From Bacteriovoracaceae bacterium (GTDB taxonomy: Bacteria > Bdellovibrionota > Bacteriovoracia > Bacteriovoracales > Bacteriovoracaceae): a DNA stretch of 64,000 bases. Position numbers and translations under genes: made by a program. Shown here piece by piece: positions 50,246 to 57,438 of the stretch (its first letter is position 1; each line of letters starts with the position of its first letter). The notes beneath the pieces are model-generated. The model saw only the letters and a program-made list of their open reading frames with translations. It had not been told where the DNA came from and searched no databases. The DNA lies in the NCBI GenBank assembly GCA_947377285.1, contig CANCFT010000018.1:1-64000 (forward strand), given 5' to 3'.

Positions 50246-51304
50246 ATGAAAGATCAATGGATACCAGTTGATAAAATTCAGTACCTCATTCAAATTGAAT
50301 CATTTGCTCTCTTTTGGATTTTATTATTATTAGGATTTATTTTTTATAAAGTCTTTTTAAAAAAAATTACAGATAAAAGACATTTGAACTTGCGTCAACG
50401 ATTTGGACGCACATTTTTTTACATTTGTGTGACTTCTCTTTTTGCAGCCGTTCATTGGTTATTATTTAATAATGCTTATCACTCCCAATCTGAGTTTTAC
50501 CTGATTAAAATTTCAAGTTATATCATTTTGATTGCTTTAGGTTTTGGTGTTATTAGCTTAATTAAACTCGCTCAAATTTATGTGTATTTATATTTATTTT
50601 TCATGAATATGAGTGTCGGAGTTCCTCGTCTCATTGCCAATATGTTTACCCTTGTTTTTTCATTGGCCATTGTCAGCTGGCTGGCCGCAGATATCTTTGC
50701 GTTTCATTTAGCGGCCGTCCTGGCTACATCCGCTGTCTTTTCTTTAGTTTTAGGTCTTGCATTACAAGACACTCTCGGGAATTTGTTTTCAGGAGTTGCT
50801 TTGCAACTTGATAGACCATTTAATATTGGTGATTGGATCGAAATTCATAGTGGCTCAGAGAAATGGGTTGGCCTTGTTCAAGAGATAAGTTGGCGAGCAA
50901 CCACTCTCTTAGGATTTGCTGATGAATTAATTCTTATCCCAAACCGTGTTATTGCTCAAAGTCAGTTGCTTAATTTTTCTCACCAAGTAAAAGCGGCGCG
51001 CCTCAATCAAGTTTTCCGTTTTCGATTTGATGTTCAAATTGATTTAGCTAGGCATGCTTTATTGGAAGGTTTGGCCAATATCCCTGAAATTTTAACGGAG
51101 CCACCACCTCGCACATTAATTACTGAAGTCACAGAGTCTTGGATAACCCTAAAAGTTTTTTATACCTTGAAAGACTATGGGACTCGTTACCGAACTGGGG
51201 ACAAGGCCATCACCCAAATCCTAGAAAGAATCCGTTACCACCAGCTTCCGCTTGCGACTCAAACTTTAAATATTGTTTCATCTATAAAAAATATAGATCT
51301 TTAG
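50246..51304 (+). CDS. MscS-family mechanosensitive channel
   Basis: Four or five N-terminal helices lead to the pore helix with its Ala/Gly pattern (ATSAVFSLVLGLALQDTLGNLFSGVALQ) and the Sm-like beta domain (DRPFNIGDWIEI and GLVQEISWRATTLLGFADELILIPN). The C-terminal alpha/beta domain is shortened. The channel opens on membrane tension and releases solutes on osmotic downshock. GGAG precedes the ATG. Confidence 0.93.
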   Translation: MKDQWIPVDKIQYLIQIESFALFWILLLLGFIFYKVFLKKITDKRHLNLRQRFGRTFFYICVTSLFAAVHWLLFNNAYHSQSEFYLIKISSYIILIALGFGVISLIKLAQIYVYLYLFFMNMSVGVPRLIANMFTLVFSLAIVSWLAADIFAFHLAAVLATSAVFSLVLGLALQDTLGNLFSGVALQLDRPFNIGDWIEIHSGSEKWVGLVQEISWRATTLLGFADELILIPNRVIAQSQLLNFSHQVKAARLNQVFRFRFDVQIDLARHALLEGLANIPEILTEPPPRTLITEVTESWITLKVFYTLKDYGTRYRTGDKAITQILERIRYHQLPLATQTLNIVSSIKNIDL

Positions 51305-51390
51305 ACTATGTTAAAATAAATATTTTTTAGTGCCTAACTAGAATTTTCTAAGCTCTAATAAGGGAGCTTGGAAAAATGTTTGGAGGTATT

Positions 51391-51831
51391 ATGAAAAATA
51401 TTGTTATCTGTGCTGATCTCAACGAAAAAAGTCTCGAAGTTTTAAAAACACTCAATCAAAGTTTAGATTTTAAAGAGGCAAAATTTCACTTCATACATAT
51501 CTTTGAAATTCATATGTATAATGCTGATCTAGTTCCAGTTATTTTTCCAACCGAAGTCCAATACCCAGAAATAGAAAAAAGTACAATAGGTATACTAGAC
51601 AAACTGACTAAAGATATTGGGTTAAAAAATGAACAAGTTGAATTAAAATGTTTTTTTTCTCATTCGCGAGAAGAAAAAATTAGAAGTTACTTAAATGAAG
51701 TTCATGCCAATATGGTCGTAGTGGCCACTAGAGGTAAACATGGCATTGAAGGCTTTTTCTCAAGTTCCCTGGCAGATTTTCTTTGCAAGTACTCCCCTTG
51801 TGATGTCTTAGTTTTAAGACCAAAGAAGTAG
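51391..51831 (+). CDS. universal stress protein (UspA family)
   Basis: The start follows TGGAGG and gives MKNIVICADLNEKS. The single Usp domain of 146 residues has the late nucleotide-binding motif in VVVATRGKHGIEGFFSSSLADFL, close to G-2x-G-9x-G(S/T), though one Gly is replaced. It ends in the usual CDVLVLRPKK. It is a cytoplasmic stress-linked protein of unclear mechanism. Confidence 0.9.
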   Translation: MKNIVICADLNEKSLEVLKTLNQSLDFKEAKFHFIHIFEIHMYNADLVPVIFPTEVQYPEIEKSTIGILDKLTKDIGLKNEQVELKCFFSHSREEKIRSYLNEVHANMVVVATRGKHGIEGFFSSSLADFLCKYSPCDVLVLRPKK

Positions 51832-51855: not shown

Positions 51856-51885
51856 TTGACCCAAATTGGATTTAGGTGTTAAAAT
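51856..51885 (+). promoter_or_regulatory. promoter with leaderless geometry
   Basis: TTGACC, an 18-base spacer and TAAAAT end five bases before ATG 51891. This sets the start of the following gene at the ATG rather than at a GTG 15 bases upstream inside the promoter. Confidence 0.5.
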
Positions 51886-51890
51886 TAACT

Positions 51891-53351
51891 ATGGGAATAG
51901 CCGTCATTGATCAGGGTCCTGAGTTATTTTGGTTTGTGAGCAATGCACTCATACAAGATGAAATTCACCTTAAACACCTTCAAACTATTCAGGCCGGCGA
52001 ACATAATATTCTTCAAGAACTACCAGAAATAGTTATTTTAAACGGCGATAACAAAACACTACTTCCTGAAAAATTTATTAATAAAATGAGAAACCACGTT
52101 TTTGCTCGTAATACTCATTTTATTGTAGTGACAGCAGACACCTCAGTTGAATTTAAAAAAAATCTTTTAATTGCAGGCGCTGGACAAATCGTTTACCGCG
52201 GCAAAGGATATGGACCTTCTCCCAAATATTTTTCAAGTTTAATTAAATGGTTTTTGAATAGTAAAAATCCGGATCCACAAATATTTGATTATAAACCTGT
52301 ACCTTTTCCCGCTGATGCTGAATTTACTAGCTTCGGTCGTATTGGCTGGATCTCTTCAACTCACTGTATGATTGAAGCCAATTTAGATTTAAATCCAGGG
52401 CAATCTATAGAAATCACCAATACACTTTTTGAAGAATTAGAAATTAAAAATGCAAAATTAGTTTGTGTTGAAAAAAATACTGTAGGTCGCTACTACCAAT
52501 ACGCCAACAGCATTCTTTGTAAAATCACCTCAAAAGATATTCACAAAGATTCAAAGACTCTCGAAAATTGGATACTAAATAACCAAAATTTAAGTAAACA
52601 CAAACCTATTAAAGTTGTTTATTTTGAAAATGACCCCGACTACCGAGAAGAAATTAAACAAATGATAAAAGTAGGATCTGCCTTCTGCGCACGAGGTTAT
52701 CCTGATATAAAAGATTTCCAAGAAGTTCTCGATTATCAACTCCCCCATCTTATCTTAATCAACCGCTCATTGATTCAGCAAGACAAAGCTAAATTTGAGG
52801 CCTTGAGAAGTTTTGTTAAAACTCATTTCTGCTTTTGCGTGACTTATTCTGAAAGTGAAGTCTTTAATAGTGAAGAATTTAAAAAACTTTATGAATTTGC
52901 CATGCATGTTCCAAAACATATTGACCTTCCATTACTAGAATCCATGGTACTTAAACTAGAAAATAAATTACCTGAAAATTTAAAAACTGATTCTAAAAAA
53001 TTTTATTTCAATAAACACTCCGTCAATAGCCGACTAAGCTTACATGCTAATTGTAAAATTACGGAACTCGCTCTAAATGGAACAGGAGTCTTACTTCCAT
53101 TTGAAATTAATAATTTCTGTGCTTGTGAAATCTCTAGTAATGTATTTCCTATAATGGAACTGGGTCGAGCTCAATATTTTAGGTCTTTCAATAGCAAAAA
53201 AAGTCCGGACAACTCAAATGGATATTTTCATCGATTAGTATTTATGGGACAAAATGTTAAAGACAAAGAACTCGTCAAAAATGGAACTGAATCCATCGCA
53301 CTAGTAGGCTATGAGCGTTGGCTCAAAGGCGATATTGAGCCTTTATCCTAA
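51891..53351 (+). CDS. duplicated degenerate receiver/PilZ-like protein
   Basis: About 486 residues appear to be built of two similar halves. Each begins with a CheY-like alpha/beta segment (residues about 1-120 and 240-365). Their acidic pockets are degraded: IAVIDQGPEL and KVVYFENDPD keep one or two acids, while the phospho-acceptor position falls in IVILNG and LILINRS, with Asn instead of Asp. Each is followed by a beta-rich segment like a PilZ domain; the second contains ITELALNGTGVLLPF, resembling the PilZ (D/N)xSxxG motif. Such a protein could read c-di-GMP without phosphorylation. The fold assignment is by eye and moderate. Confidence 0.65.
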   Translation: MGIAVIDQGPELFWFVSNALIQDEIHLKHLQTIQAGEHNILQELPEIVILNGDNKTLLPEKFINKMRNHVFARNTHFIVVTADTSVEFKKNLLIAGAGQIVYRGKGYGPSPKYFSSLIKWFLNSKNPDPQIFDYKPVPFPADAEFTSFGRIGWISSTHCMIEANLDLNPGQSIEITNTLFEELEIKNAKLVCVEKNTVGRYYQYANSILCKITSKDIHKDSKTLENWILNNQNLSKHKPIKVVYFENDPDYREEIKQMIKVGSAFCARGYPDIKDFQEVLDYQLPHLILINRSLIQQDKAKFEALRSFVKTHFCFCVTYSESEVFNSEEFKKLYEFAMHVPKHIDLPLLESMVLKLENKLPENLKTDSKKFYFNKHSVNSRLSLHANCKITELALNGTGVLLPFEINNFCACEISSNVFPIMELGRAQYFRSFNSKKSPDNSNGYFHRLVFMGQNVKDKELVKNGTESIALVGYERWLKGDIEPLS

Positions 53352-54986: not shown

Positions 54987-55364
54987 TCAATGAGAACAAT
55001 ATCGATTAACAATTCCAATCAGGTCATTAATTTCAAAAGCTTTATTTAGGTGCTCTACATGAAAGGGAGTTACATCTTTTTCAAGGGATTTTTCGGCAGA
55101 TAAAATGACTATTGGAATAGTTGAAAGTTCAGAATTCTTGTCCATTTTTATAGTTGATAAAAACTCTAATCCATTCATAGAAGGCATCATAAGATCACAA
55201 AAAATTAATGATGGTTTTATATTATGAGATAGAATTTCAAGAGCACTGGCTCCATTATCAGCACAAAATGACTGATGGCCCAAAATAGATAAAACTTTTT
55301 TTAAAGCTGTTTGAACTTCTGGATCATCATCAATAATTAGAATCTTTCTCGATTTTTTCATCAT
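54987..55364 (-). CDS. stand-alone receiver, partner of the Hpt protein
   Basis: The receiver has the acidic triplet D12-D14, phospho-acceptor D57 in IFCDLMMP, the Thr/Ser position in VILSAE, and the conserved Lys in LNKAF, where the usual Pro after Lys is Ala. Its ATG overlaps the stop of the Hpt gene (TAATG). It is the last gene of a three-gene coupled operon (DAC-like, Hpt, receiver) and probably gives or takes phosphate from that Hpt domain. Confidence 0.9.
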   Translation of the reverse strand: MMKKSRKILIIDDDPEVQTALKKVLSILGHQSFCADNGASALEILSHNIKPSLIFCDLMMPSMNGLEFLSTIKMDKNSELSTIPIVILSAEKSLEKDVTPFHVEHLNKAFEINDLIGIVNRYCSH

Positions 55365-55702
55365 TATTTTAATTTTTCTTCATTTAAAAAAGTTTGAAAT
55401 TCATCAATCACTTTGGGCAACTTTGAAATATCACCATTTTTAGCGGTGTCTTCAATACGATTTCCAATTTCACTCAATGCTGAAAATCCATACAAACCAG
55501 CACTACCCTTAATCTTATGCCCTATCTTTTGGATTTTTTCTAATCGATTAGAATCTAATTCATCTTTTAGATTATTTTTAATTTCTAATAAATCCTCAAA
55601 TCTTTTTTCGATATAATTTTTTCCTTGGGAAAAGAAATATTTCTCTATCTCATGAATTCGGCTTACTTCAGAAATTGAATGAACTCTCGTGTTCGATTTC
55701 AT
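55364..55702 (-). CDS. histidine-phosphotransfer (Hpt) protein
   Basis: This 112-residue helical protein carries the Hpt motif IGHKIKGSAGLYGF, with H62 as phospho-acceptor, followed by a helix with ALSEIGNRIED. Such domains shuttle phosphate between receivers in multistep relays. The start overlaps the DAC-like gene by four bases (ATGA), with GAGG upstream, and the stop overlaps the receiver gene, so all three are translated together. No histidine kinase is visible nearby. Confidence 0.9.
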   Translation of the reverse strand: MKSNTRVHSISEVSRIHEIEKYFFSQGKNYIEKRFEDLLEIKNNLKDELDSNRLEKIQKIGHKIKGSAGLYGFSALSEIGNRIEDTAKNGDISKLPKVIDEFQTFLNEEKLK

Positions 55703-56925
55703 ATTAATACCTCGTTAGTTTTTACTAAATGTTTATAAGGCCTGCTTTCCAATGTAAAACAATTCTCTGTTTTAAGAATTCCCTGACAAATTGGGCAATT
55801 CAAAATTAAATCTTTGTCCCATTCGAAAACATTTACTTGCTCAACCACAAGATTCTTCTCGCAAAAATGACAAATTAACTCATAGGTCGAGCTTGTTATA
55901 TCAAGTTGTTTTTCTGGCAGTATTTTTCTTAAATCATGTGCTGATTTGTAAGATGGATGAATACTCAAGCCTGCAATATTCACACCATCAGAAAAAATAG
56001 TCACAGGTCCATCACTTGAAATTGTAATCACTAATGTATTTGTAAAATCATAAGAAAAACGTTTAGCTGATGTGTGCCTAGTTCCTTTAAGTTCAGGAAT
56101 TATTGTTCTACTTTTATTTGAATTTTTTAAATGAATGCCAGTTCGTAAAATGTCTCCCTCTGAATTAACATAAGTTGCCCCATCAATCAGAGAAAAAAAA
56201 TGACAAAAAGAATTTGCTTTTTTCTCATCTAATAATGAAAAACGAAAATCATTCATTTCTATCCCAGTTGTGAGAATTTCGACATTATCTATAGTTATTT
56301 CATTGAGCCACCAAACAATTGTTGCCCCCACTTTAGGTATCGGACTAAGTAAGTGAAAGGCAAACTCAAGTACCGTATTCAAAACATTGTGATTAATTTC
56401 AGAAACACATCTTGAAATTTTCCAAGCAGCTTCTTTTATCAATGGTTTTCTATACCAACTTCTATTCTCAAGTAAAATAATATTATTGCCTTGAAAAAAT
56501 TTAATTATTCCTCCCGGCCCTCTTTGAACAAACAAACCACCGGATGGCGGAAAAGCTCTGACTAATAATAATTCATTTGAAATTGGTTCCTTAAAATATA
56601 CTAATCCAAAAAATATATCTTTTTCATATATAAGAAAACAGTCTATACCATTAGCAAATTTTCTAGCCATCTCAATATGCTCAACACTGACTAGAACATA
56701 ATCAACACCATATAATTCAGCAGCTACTTCAACAAAGAGTACACCAATAGATGGAATTAAACCTTCATGAGCTTCGCTTGCAATAACAATTGATAATTCA
56801 TTTAAAATTGTTTTTGATGATAACCATTTATGATTATTTTCAATTTTTATTCCATTTAACTCAAGTTCTCTTGCGAGAAGTCTCTGCATTTCATTAAGGT
56901 GTTCGGAACTAGTTGCCAACATCAT
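55699..56925 (-). CDS. diadenylate-cyclase-like (DAC/DisA_N) protein with zinc ribbon
   Basis: Residues about 180-325 resemble the diadenylate cyclase fold: VGATIVWWLNE, then IDGATYV with the DGA motif at 248-250, then KGTRHTSAKRFSYDF with RHT at 283-285 where active enzymes have RHR, and finally LVITISSDGPVTIFSDG. These enzymes make c-di-AMP from two ATP. The third RHR residue is Thr here, so activity is uncertain. The N-terminal 170 residues probably form a sensor domain, and two CxxC pairs (C352/C355 and C377/C380) form a zinc ribbon at the C-terminus. It is the first gene of the operon with an Hpt and a receiver, which suggests phosphorelay control of a nucleotide second messenger. The family assignment is by motif only. 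Confidence 0.75.
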   Translation of the reverse strand: MMLATSSEHLNEMQRLLARELELNGIKIENNHKWLSSKTILNELSIVIASEAHEGLIPSIGVLFVEVAAELYGVDYVLVSVEHIEMARKFANGIDCFLIYEKDIFFGLVYFKEPISNELLLVRAFPPSGGLFVQRGPGGIIKFFQGNNIILLENRSWYRKPLIKEAAWKISRCVSEINHNVLNTVLEFAFHLLSPIPKVGATIVWWLNEITIDNVEILTTGIEMNDFRFSLLDEKKANSFCHFFSLIDGATYVNSEGDILRTGIHLKNSNKSRTIIPELKGTRHTSAKRFSYDFTNTLVITISSDGPVTIFSDGVNIAGLSIHPSYKSAHDLRKILPEKQLDITSSTYELICHFCEKNLVVEQVNVFEWDKDLILNCPICQGILKTENCFTLESRPYKHLVKTNEVLI

Positions 56926-57018
56926 CGCGACTCCTATAAAACATTAAAACAACAAATGCATTTGAGAAAAAAACTCACACATGCATTTTCTACATAATCT
57001 TAATCAGAAGGATTAACA

Positions 57019-57438
57019 ATGATCGAAATTTCCAAAAAAAATCCTCGCTCAGTTTTTGTTGTTGAAGATGATTTAGAACTCTCTTCAGTCATCGACCGCA
57101 TTCTAATAAGTATTGATCCAACGTTAATTCTCGAATGGGCCACTACAGCGGAAGAGGCCATAAGATCTTTAGTAAAACGAGCGGAAGAAAACAAAGAAAC
57201 CCCCTATGACTTAGTTATCTGTGATATTTTTCTTGAAGGTGCCAGAAATGGATTAGACCTTTGGAAGTTTTGTCATACTCACTATCCAGAAATGAAGGTC
57301 ATTATTATTTCAGGTATTGATCAAGAAAAATTAACAACCCTACTAGAAACAGGTGAAAAAGCTCCTCTTTTTTTAAGTAAACCTTTCTCAGTAGGTGACT
57401 GTAGTAATCTTTTAGAAAAACTACTAATCGAGTCGTAG
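57019..57438 (+). CDS. stand-alone receiver, divergent from the DAC-like operon
   Basis: The 139-residue receiver has acids E16-D18, phospho-acceptor D69 in VICDIFLEG, Ser in IIISGID and Lys-Pro in FLSKPF. A 15-residue loop insertion follows the first helix region. AAGGA precedes the ATG. It is divergent from the DAC-like/Hpt/receiver operon, with 93 bases between start codons, so it may be a second partner for the same Hpt protein. Confidence 0.9.
   Translation: MIEISKKNPRSVFVVEDDLELSSVIDRILISIDPTLILEWATTAEEAIRSLVKRAEENKETPYDLVICDIFLEGARNGLDLWKFCHTHYPEMKVIIISGIDQEKLTTLLETGEKAPLFLSKPFSVGDCSNLLEKLLIES

Follow-up and report, generated by a model that had tools for sequence, protein, structure and literature searches.

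Known cases of receiver-controlled synthesis of a cyclic dinucleotide include PleD and WspR, which are c-di-GMP cyclases. The locus that we describe here resembles them in the proposed two-component input to a dinucleotide cyclase, but PleD and WspR make another messenger with a GGDEF fold, whereas our protein has a diadenylate cyclase (DAC) fold, its receivers are separate proteins and an Hpt protein is added to them. To our knowledge, the control of c-di-AMP synthesis by outside signals is poorly known. In the literature searched, which was mainly open-access and excluded bioRxiv, we found no description of a DAC-Hpt-receiver operon (including the available parts of PMC6741144, PMC9239204, PMC6416229 and PMC5986932) and no mention of DACNK. 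There was likewise no mention of DACNV among the matches listed for the diadenylate cyclase literature, or of Bacteriovorax among those listed for c-di-AMP.

Among described diadenylate cyclases, CdaA/DacA shares with our protein the DAC domain fold and most of the ATP-site residues, but it belongs to a cdaA-cdaR-glmM operon instead of an Hpt and receiver context, it reads RHR where our protein reads RHT, and it has, according to the accessible part of PMC8573169, membrane helices at the N-terminus, where our protein scores as DACNK. DisA is, like our protein, a soluble multi-domain DAC with a matching domain fold, but the DisA equivalog model gives our protein 15.9 bits where 201 are required, and Pfam detects no DisA C-terminal domain, its place being taken by a Cys ribbon. 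The DACNK-DAC proteins of Pfam have the identical domain order and read GTRHT in most rows. They differ in context, since an Hpt is present in our locus but was found near the DAC in none of 33 loci outside Bdellovibrionota (with profiles built from few rows, and several loci ending at contig edges), and the DACNK-DAC family therefore does not need phosphorelay partners. The DACNK-DAC enzyme architecture is already in Pfam, and the new part is the phosphorelay wiring. We file the protein as a DACNK-type DAC, with a DACNK domain (PF21753) followed by DAC, rather than with the classical CdaA and DisA proteins, because its motif is RHT instead of RHR.

With about even confidence, we read the locus as a phosphorelay-linked unit around a soluble, accessory enzyme that would make c-di-AMP. 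Catalysis, product, phosphotransfer, contact between receiver and DAC, direction of control and the kinase are what we infer; the data show the domains, the DAC fold of the isolated domain model, the conserved active-site residues, the conserved gene linkage and the presence of a second, canonical DAC. A further proposal, held tentatively and short of an even chance, is that this would be the first two-component-controlled c-di-AMP synthase, a unit of a dedicated Hpt, two stand-alone receivers and a DACNK-DAC in Bdellovibrionota with an RHT site that is non-canonical yet active. If so, c-di-AMP would gain a phosphorelay input, so far known for c-di-GMP.

The window, that is, the whole stretch of DNA analysed, comprises the first 64,000 nucleotides of a contig from a Bacteriovoracaceae bacterium (CANCFT010000018.1). 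Three genes of the reverse strand encode a 408-aa DACNK-DAC-Cys-ribbon protein, a putative accessory diadenylate cyclase (55699..56925; ORF, Pfam profiles and domain fold match), a 112-aa Hpt protein with phospho-acceptor His62 (55364..55702; ORF, profile PF01627 and alignment) and a 125-aa single-domain receiver, REC1, with Asp57 as the site located by inspection (54987..55364; ORF and profile). On the forward strand, a 139-aa single-domain receiver, REC2, with Asp69 and Lys121 (57019..57438; ORF, profile and alignment), starts 93 bp from the start of the DAC gene, the two sharing an intergenic region of this length (56926..57018, no strand). The DAC and Hpt genes overlap by 4 nt (ATGA) and the Hpt and REC1 genes by 1 nt (TAATG), so that the ORF coordinates bear out an earlier note on this DNA, which had described an overlapping three-gene run beside a divergent receiver. 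That note missed the N-terminal DACNK domain and the C-terminal CxxC...CxxC ribbon of the first protein, as well as the membership of the divergent REC2 in a conserved unit. An AGGAG ribosome-binding sequence lies directly 5' of the DAC ATG and is kept in all four genus loci. A promoter scan gave 14 matches against a mean of 15.4 in shuffles, that is, no excess.

The DACNK domain, called a "probable sensor domain" in Pfam, covers residues 18-161 (56443..56874, reverse strand) with 32.8 bits for a cut-off of 27. It is followed by the DAC domain (PF02457, residues 198-314; 55984..56334, reverse strand), matched with 45.7 bits (curated cut-off 27, E 5.7e-12), and by a C-terminal ribbon of C352, C355, C377, C380 and C389 (55759..55872, reverse strand, from the alignment). 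The five Cys are invariant in all seven Bdellovibrionota rows of the alignment, and the ribbon probably binds zinc. Profile and structure searches, set by the earlier note as the test of its DAC assignment, uphold it by the profile score and by the fold of the isolated domain. When the DAC domain was modelled by itself (pLDDT 86.4), the model matched 71 PDB chains at E<=0.001, and the 50 matches listed were all CdaA, DacA, DisA, CdaM or DacM entries, with E from 3.4e-07 and query TM of 0.51-0.62. The full-length model is confident (pLDDT 92.1, pTM 0.86), but in Foldseek it gave no match at E<=0.001 among 308, with no DAC among the 50 matches listed; the secondary-structure elements of the DAC part are identical in both models. 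By sequence, the matches to solved DACs are weak: the single protein reached one of them at best (E 0.035), and a 34-row family profile reached 14 sequences at E<=0.1, with E from 0.00076.

The two motifs that the earlier note had pointed out are indeed present, DGA at residues 248-250 (56176..56184, reverse strand, from the translation) and GTRHT, the equivalent of RHR with Thr, at residues 281-285 (56071..56085, reverse strand, from translation and alignment). We compared them in an alignment of 34 rows made up of the window protein and 33 of the 39 loci found by an alignment-based scan of genome contigs; L057 and L066, whose frames are partial or too long, were left out, as were L067-L070. 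DGA occurs with GTRHT[SN] in 25 of the DACNK-DACs and with GMRHT in one, and these 26 rows include, by record title, Bdellovibrionota, Cyanobacteriota, Planctomycetota, Actinomycetota and others. The remaining eight pair DLA with GMRHR and form one tree group (support 100/98). Judged from the alignment, the Thr of RHT is a family trait of DACNK-DACs, and decay as the origin of the Arg-to-Thr change is rejected in view of the 26 rows sharing it and of purifying selection on the gene. In the group of eight (L047, L048, L051, L058-L060, L062 and L064; seven of Acidimicrobiia type by record title), two active-site changes travel together, DLA for DGA and MRHR for TRHT. L057 reads MRHR, and DGA was not found there. 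L067, a DACND-DACNH-DAC protein from a Melainabacteria/Cyanobacteria MAG, reads RFN at the RHR position, and L068-L070, MAG DACs of the same label, have FN where RH is expected, the preceding residue lying outside the printed stretch, so that variation of the motif is not confined to a single DAC subfamily.

According to the available portion of a review (PMC7288161), the side chains of the ATP site of Listeria monocytogenes CdaA are Leu31, which touches adenine, Asp71, Thr102, Arg103, His104, Ser122 and Glu124, with main-chain contacts from Leu88, Gly101 and Glu123; Arg105, the second Arg of RHR, does not appear in the site list given there. In a profile alignment, the counterparts in the window protein are Asp248, Gly281, Thr282, Arg283, His284 and Ser303, and five of the seven listed side chains (D, T, R, H, S) are identical, with Asp305 replacing Glu124 and Thr202 replacing Leu31. 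A MAFFT alignment agrees for GALI, Thr202, DGA/Asp248 and GTRH but is out of step by one position at the SEE motif/Ser303, so the equivalence of Ser303 with Ser122 and of Asp305 with Glu124 rests on the profile alignment. The earlier statement that DAC domains need DGA and RHR was too strong: in Mycobacterium tuberculosis DisA, as far as the accessible part of PMC3328451 reports, replacing RHR by AAA abolishes activity, whereas the enzyme tolerates a change of Gly to Ala in DGA. The doubt raised over the Arg-to-Thr change is also largely answered, with RHT being the rule in the family alignment and the changed Arg absent from the CdaA list. Diadenylate cyclase activity is thus the likely prediction for the window protein, with RHT instead of canonical RHR, Thr for Leu31 and Asp for Glu as sequence differences that speak against it. 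If the protein is active, a whole subfamily would work without the final Arg of textbook RHR, which bears on the annotation of DACs.

The same genome carries an ordinary cdaA elsewhere, which reads GTRHRAA and precedes YbbR-like (cdaR) and glmM-like genes, both named by reading; the gene of the window is therefore a second DAC. GTRHRAA is found in all 13 CdaA loci of the genus. The fourteenth genus genome (G014, an incomplete MAG) has no canonical match, and its single DAC match is of DACNK type by position. A DAC of any kind occurs in 304 of the 368 genomes of our phylum sample. In G304, from another family and 93% complete, the single DAC match (E 1.4e-10) is of DACNK type as judged by match strength and may be the sole source of c-di-AMP there.

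The Hpt (PF01627) scores 43.2 bits for a cut-off of 24.6, and REC1 and REC2 score 67.1 and 44.5 bits with Response_reg (PF00072, cut-off 30.2). His62 is invariant in the six aligned Hpt rows, a seventh having been read by eye, and Asp69 and Lys121 of REC2 are invariant in seven of seven rows. Pfam detects no output domain in the Hpt and receivers of the window, which fits a protein-protein control of the DAC. No histidine kinase is present among the 18 window proteins scanned; a HisKA/HATPase gene lies near the Hpt in one genome of the other family (G312). Elsewhere in the window, a 491-aa protein (51876-53351) has no Pfam match over the cut-off and a weak receiver-like match (E 0.22).

If the locus encodes a phosphorelay-controlled synthase, two DAC domains would face each other in a dimer of the DACNK-DAC protein, the geometry that catalysis requires according to the part of PMC7288161 available, and join two ATP into c-di-AMP. 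An orphan, perhaps hybrid, histidine kinase encoded elsewhere would pass phosphate to the co-translated Hpt, which would exchange it with both receivers, REC1 and divergent REC2. Once phosphorylated, a receiver might then bind the DACNK or ribbon part and alter the dimerisation of the DAC domains. Signals would in this way add a burst of c-di-AMP to what the housekeeping CdaA supplies.

The main alternative, which we consider unlikely, reverses the direction of this scheme: the DAC domain would bind ATP or c-di-AMP without synthesis, and its ligand would steer the phosphorelay, with the Hpt and receivers as output. The altered RHR is consistent with such a nucleotide sensor, as are the second, canonical DAC of 13 of the 14 genus genomes, which could supply c-di-AMP, and the subgroup with DLA and MRHR, in which the family tolerates active-site change. 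Moreover, c-di-AMP steers the two-component kinase KdpD, as reported in the accessible part of PMC8214093. Nevertheless, the RHT group has kept the Asp of DGA, the T, R, H and S residues and a metal-type acid, and the one DAC match each in G304 and G014, both incomplete MAGs, also argues for synthesis.

To follow the unit across genomes we used a sample of 14 genomes of the genus and 368 of the phylum Bdellovibrionota. DACNK occurs in seven of the 368, namely in four of the 14 of the window's genus and in three that belong to a single genus of another family; with genomes restricted to at least 90% completeness and at most 5% contamination, the count is five of 234. The closest named relatives are three Bacteriovorax MAGs. 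A scan of contigs with the single protein found no relative, and the alignment-based scan found the 39 loci. A family-wide protein search had the window's genome as its sole match among 95, the other genus carriers lying outside that sample. The seven Bdellovibrionota DACs form one tree group (100/99). One of them (L037, in G310) comes from a record titled Nitrosovibrio sp., which a genome search places in the window's phylum and whose DAC groups with those of Bdellovibrionota; the record is probably a mislabelled MAG.

The order REC2 diverging from DAC-Hpt-REC1 is identical in all four genus genomes. The earlier note had made recurrence of the three-gene order in related genomes a test, and it recurs in the three other gene-bearing members of the genus, with a rearranged set in the three genomes of the other family: DAC-Hpt followed by opposite-strand genes in G304, DAC-REC-REC-Hpt in G312, and DAC-OmpR-type regulator-Hpt-REC in G310, each with a divergent receiver upstream. 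Across the seven Bdellovibrionota loci, a divergent receiver is present in all, a same-strand Hpt downstream also in all (five at a distance of -4 to 46 nt, the other two at 782 and 1111 nt), and a same-strand receiver within the gene run in six. Elsewhere, 3 of the 33 loci have a receiver-like match (L039, L044 and L070), none of them a small divergent gene; in L044, the receiver-bearing gene is two genes upstream of the DAC on the same strand.

REC2 orthologues at E<=1e-6 are found in exactly the four of 14 genus genomes with a DACNK-type DAC and in no other, although these four may be one lineage, in which case the co-occurrence counts for less than odds of 1 in 1001. These four genomes also carry the close Hpt matches (70-79% identity); weaker ones (24-37%) also occur in genus genomes without such a DAC, some match being present in 11 of 14, and from the other family, the two aligned Hpts share only 18 and 29% identity with that of the window. 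With eight Hpt matches in the whole genome, a same-strand Hpt is expected by chance within 1.2 kb with a probability of about 0.001 at each locus. Rough dN/dS values, with many dS above 1, were 0.03-0.21 in 21 of the 24 pairs of module genes with unsaturated dS. All four genes being kept in three other genus genomes and dN/dS being low, the gene order goes beyond chance.

These data bear on a second alternative, that the genes are mere neighbours, the receivers and Hpt serving phosphorelays in general and lying here by accident. It may draw on the missing Hpt in the loci of other groups and on a local order that differs between the two families, but the translational overlaps, a linkage found at all seven loci across two families and the exact co-occurrence of REC2 with the DAC make it quite improbable. 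The tie of a conserved, non-canonical second DAC to phosphorelay proteins in two Bdellovibrionota families is real, and this unit would offer a genetically simple place for testing c-di-AMP control in Gram-negative relatives of predators. Least probable, and highly doubtful, is that the protein is an active enzyme of DAC fold but uses another substrate or makes another product, such as a different cyclic or linear nucleotide, in which case RHT and GATI would mean altered specificity: the co-varying pairs DGA/RHT and DLA/RHR and the alignment of the adenine-touching Leu31 with Thr202 are in its favour, but the phosphate and metal site is almost unchanged and we know of no DAC that makes another product.

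Two further readings were rejected. For a defence system, PADLOC gave no match for the DAC, Hpt or REC2, and REC1 had a weak match of 16.7 bits to the SduA model only; for a mobile origin, the DAC was without match in plasmid or phage collections.

TrkA_C-type domains can bind c-di-AMP, and a Na/H exchanger with two such domains is convergent with REC1 in three of the four genus loci (L026:4339-6507, L027:3589-5757 and L028:822-2978), making it a possible c-di-AMP target. Binding of c-di-AMP by a TrkA is described in the available part of PMC12453120. As a fixed partner of the module, this antiporter was discarded: in the window other genes hold that place, the genome's nearest homologue (43% identical) being encoded on a different contig, and G006 and G015, each with the canonical DAC as its single DAC match, have homologues of 64% identity. 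Its link to the module is weak. The DNA upstream of the module in the window encodes an MscS-type channel (50246-51304) and a UspA-family protein (51376-51831), which fit an osmotic theme. In G310 and G304, DNA-binding regulators are also present in the neighbourhood of the module, and a transcription branch is therefore also possible.
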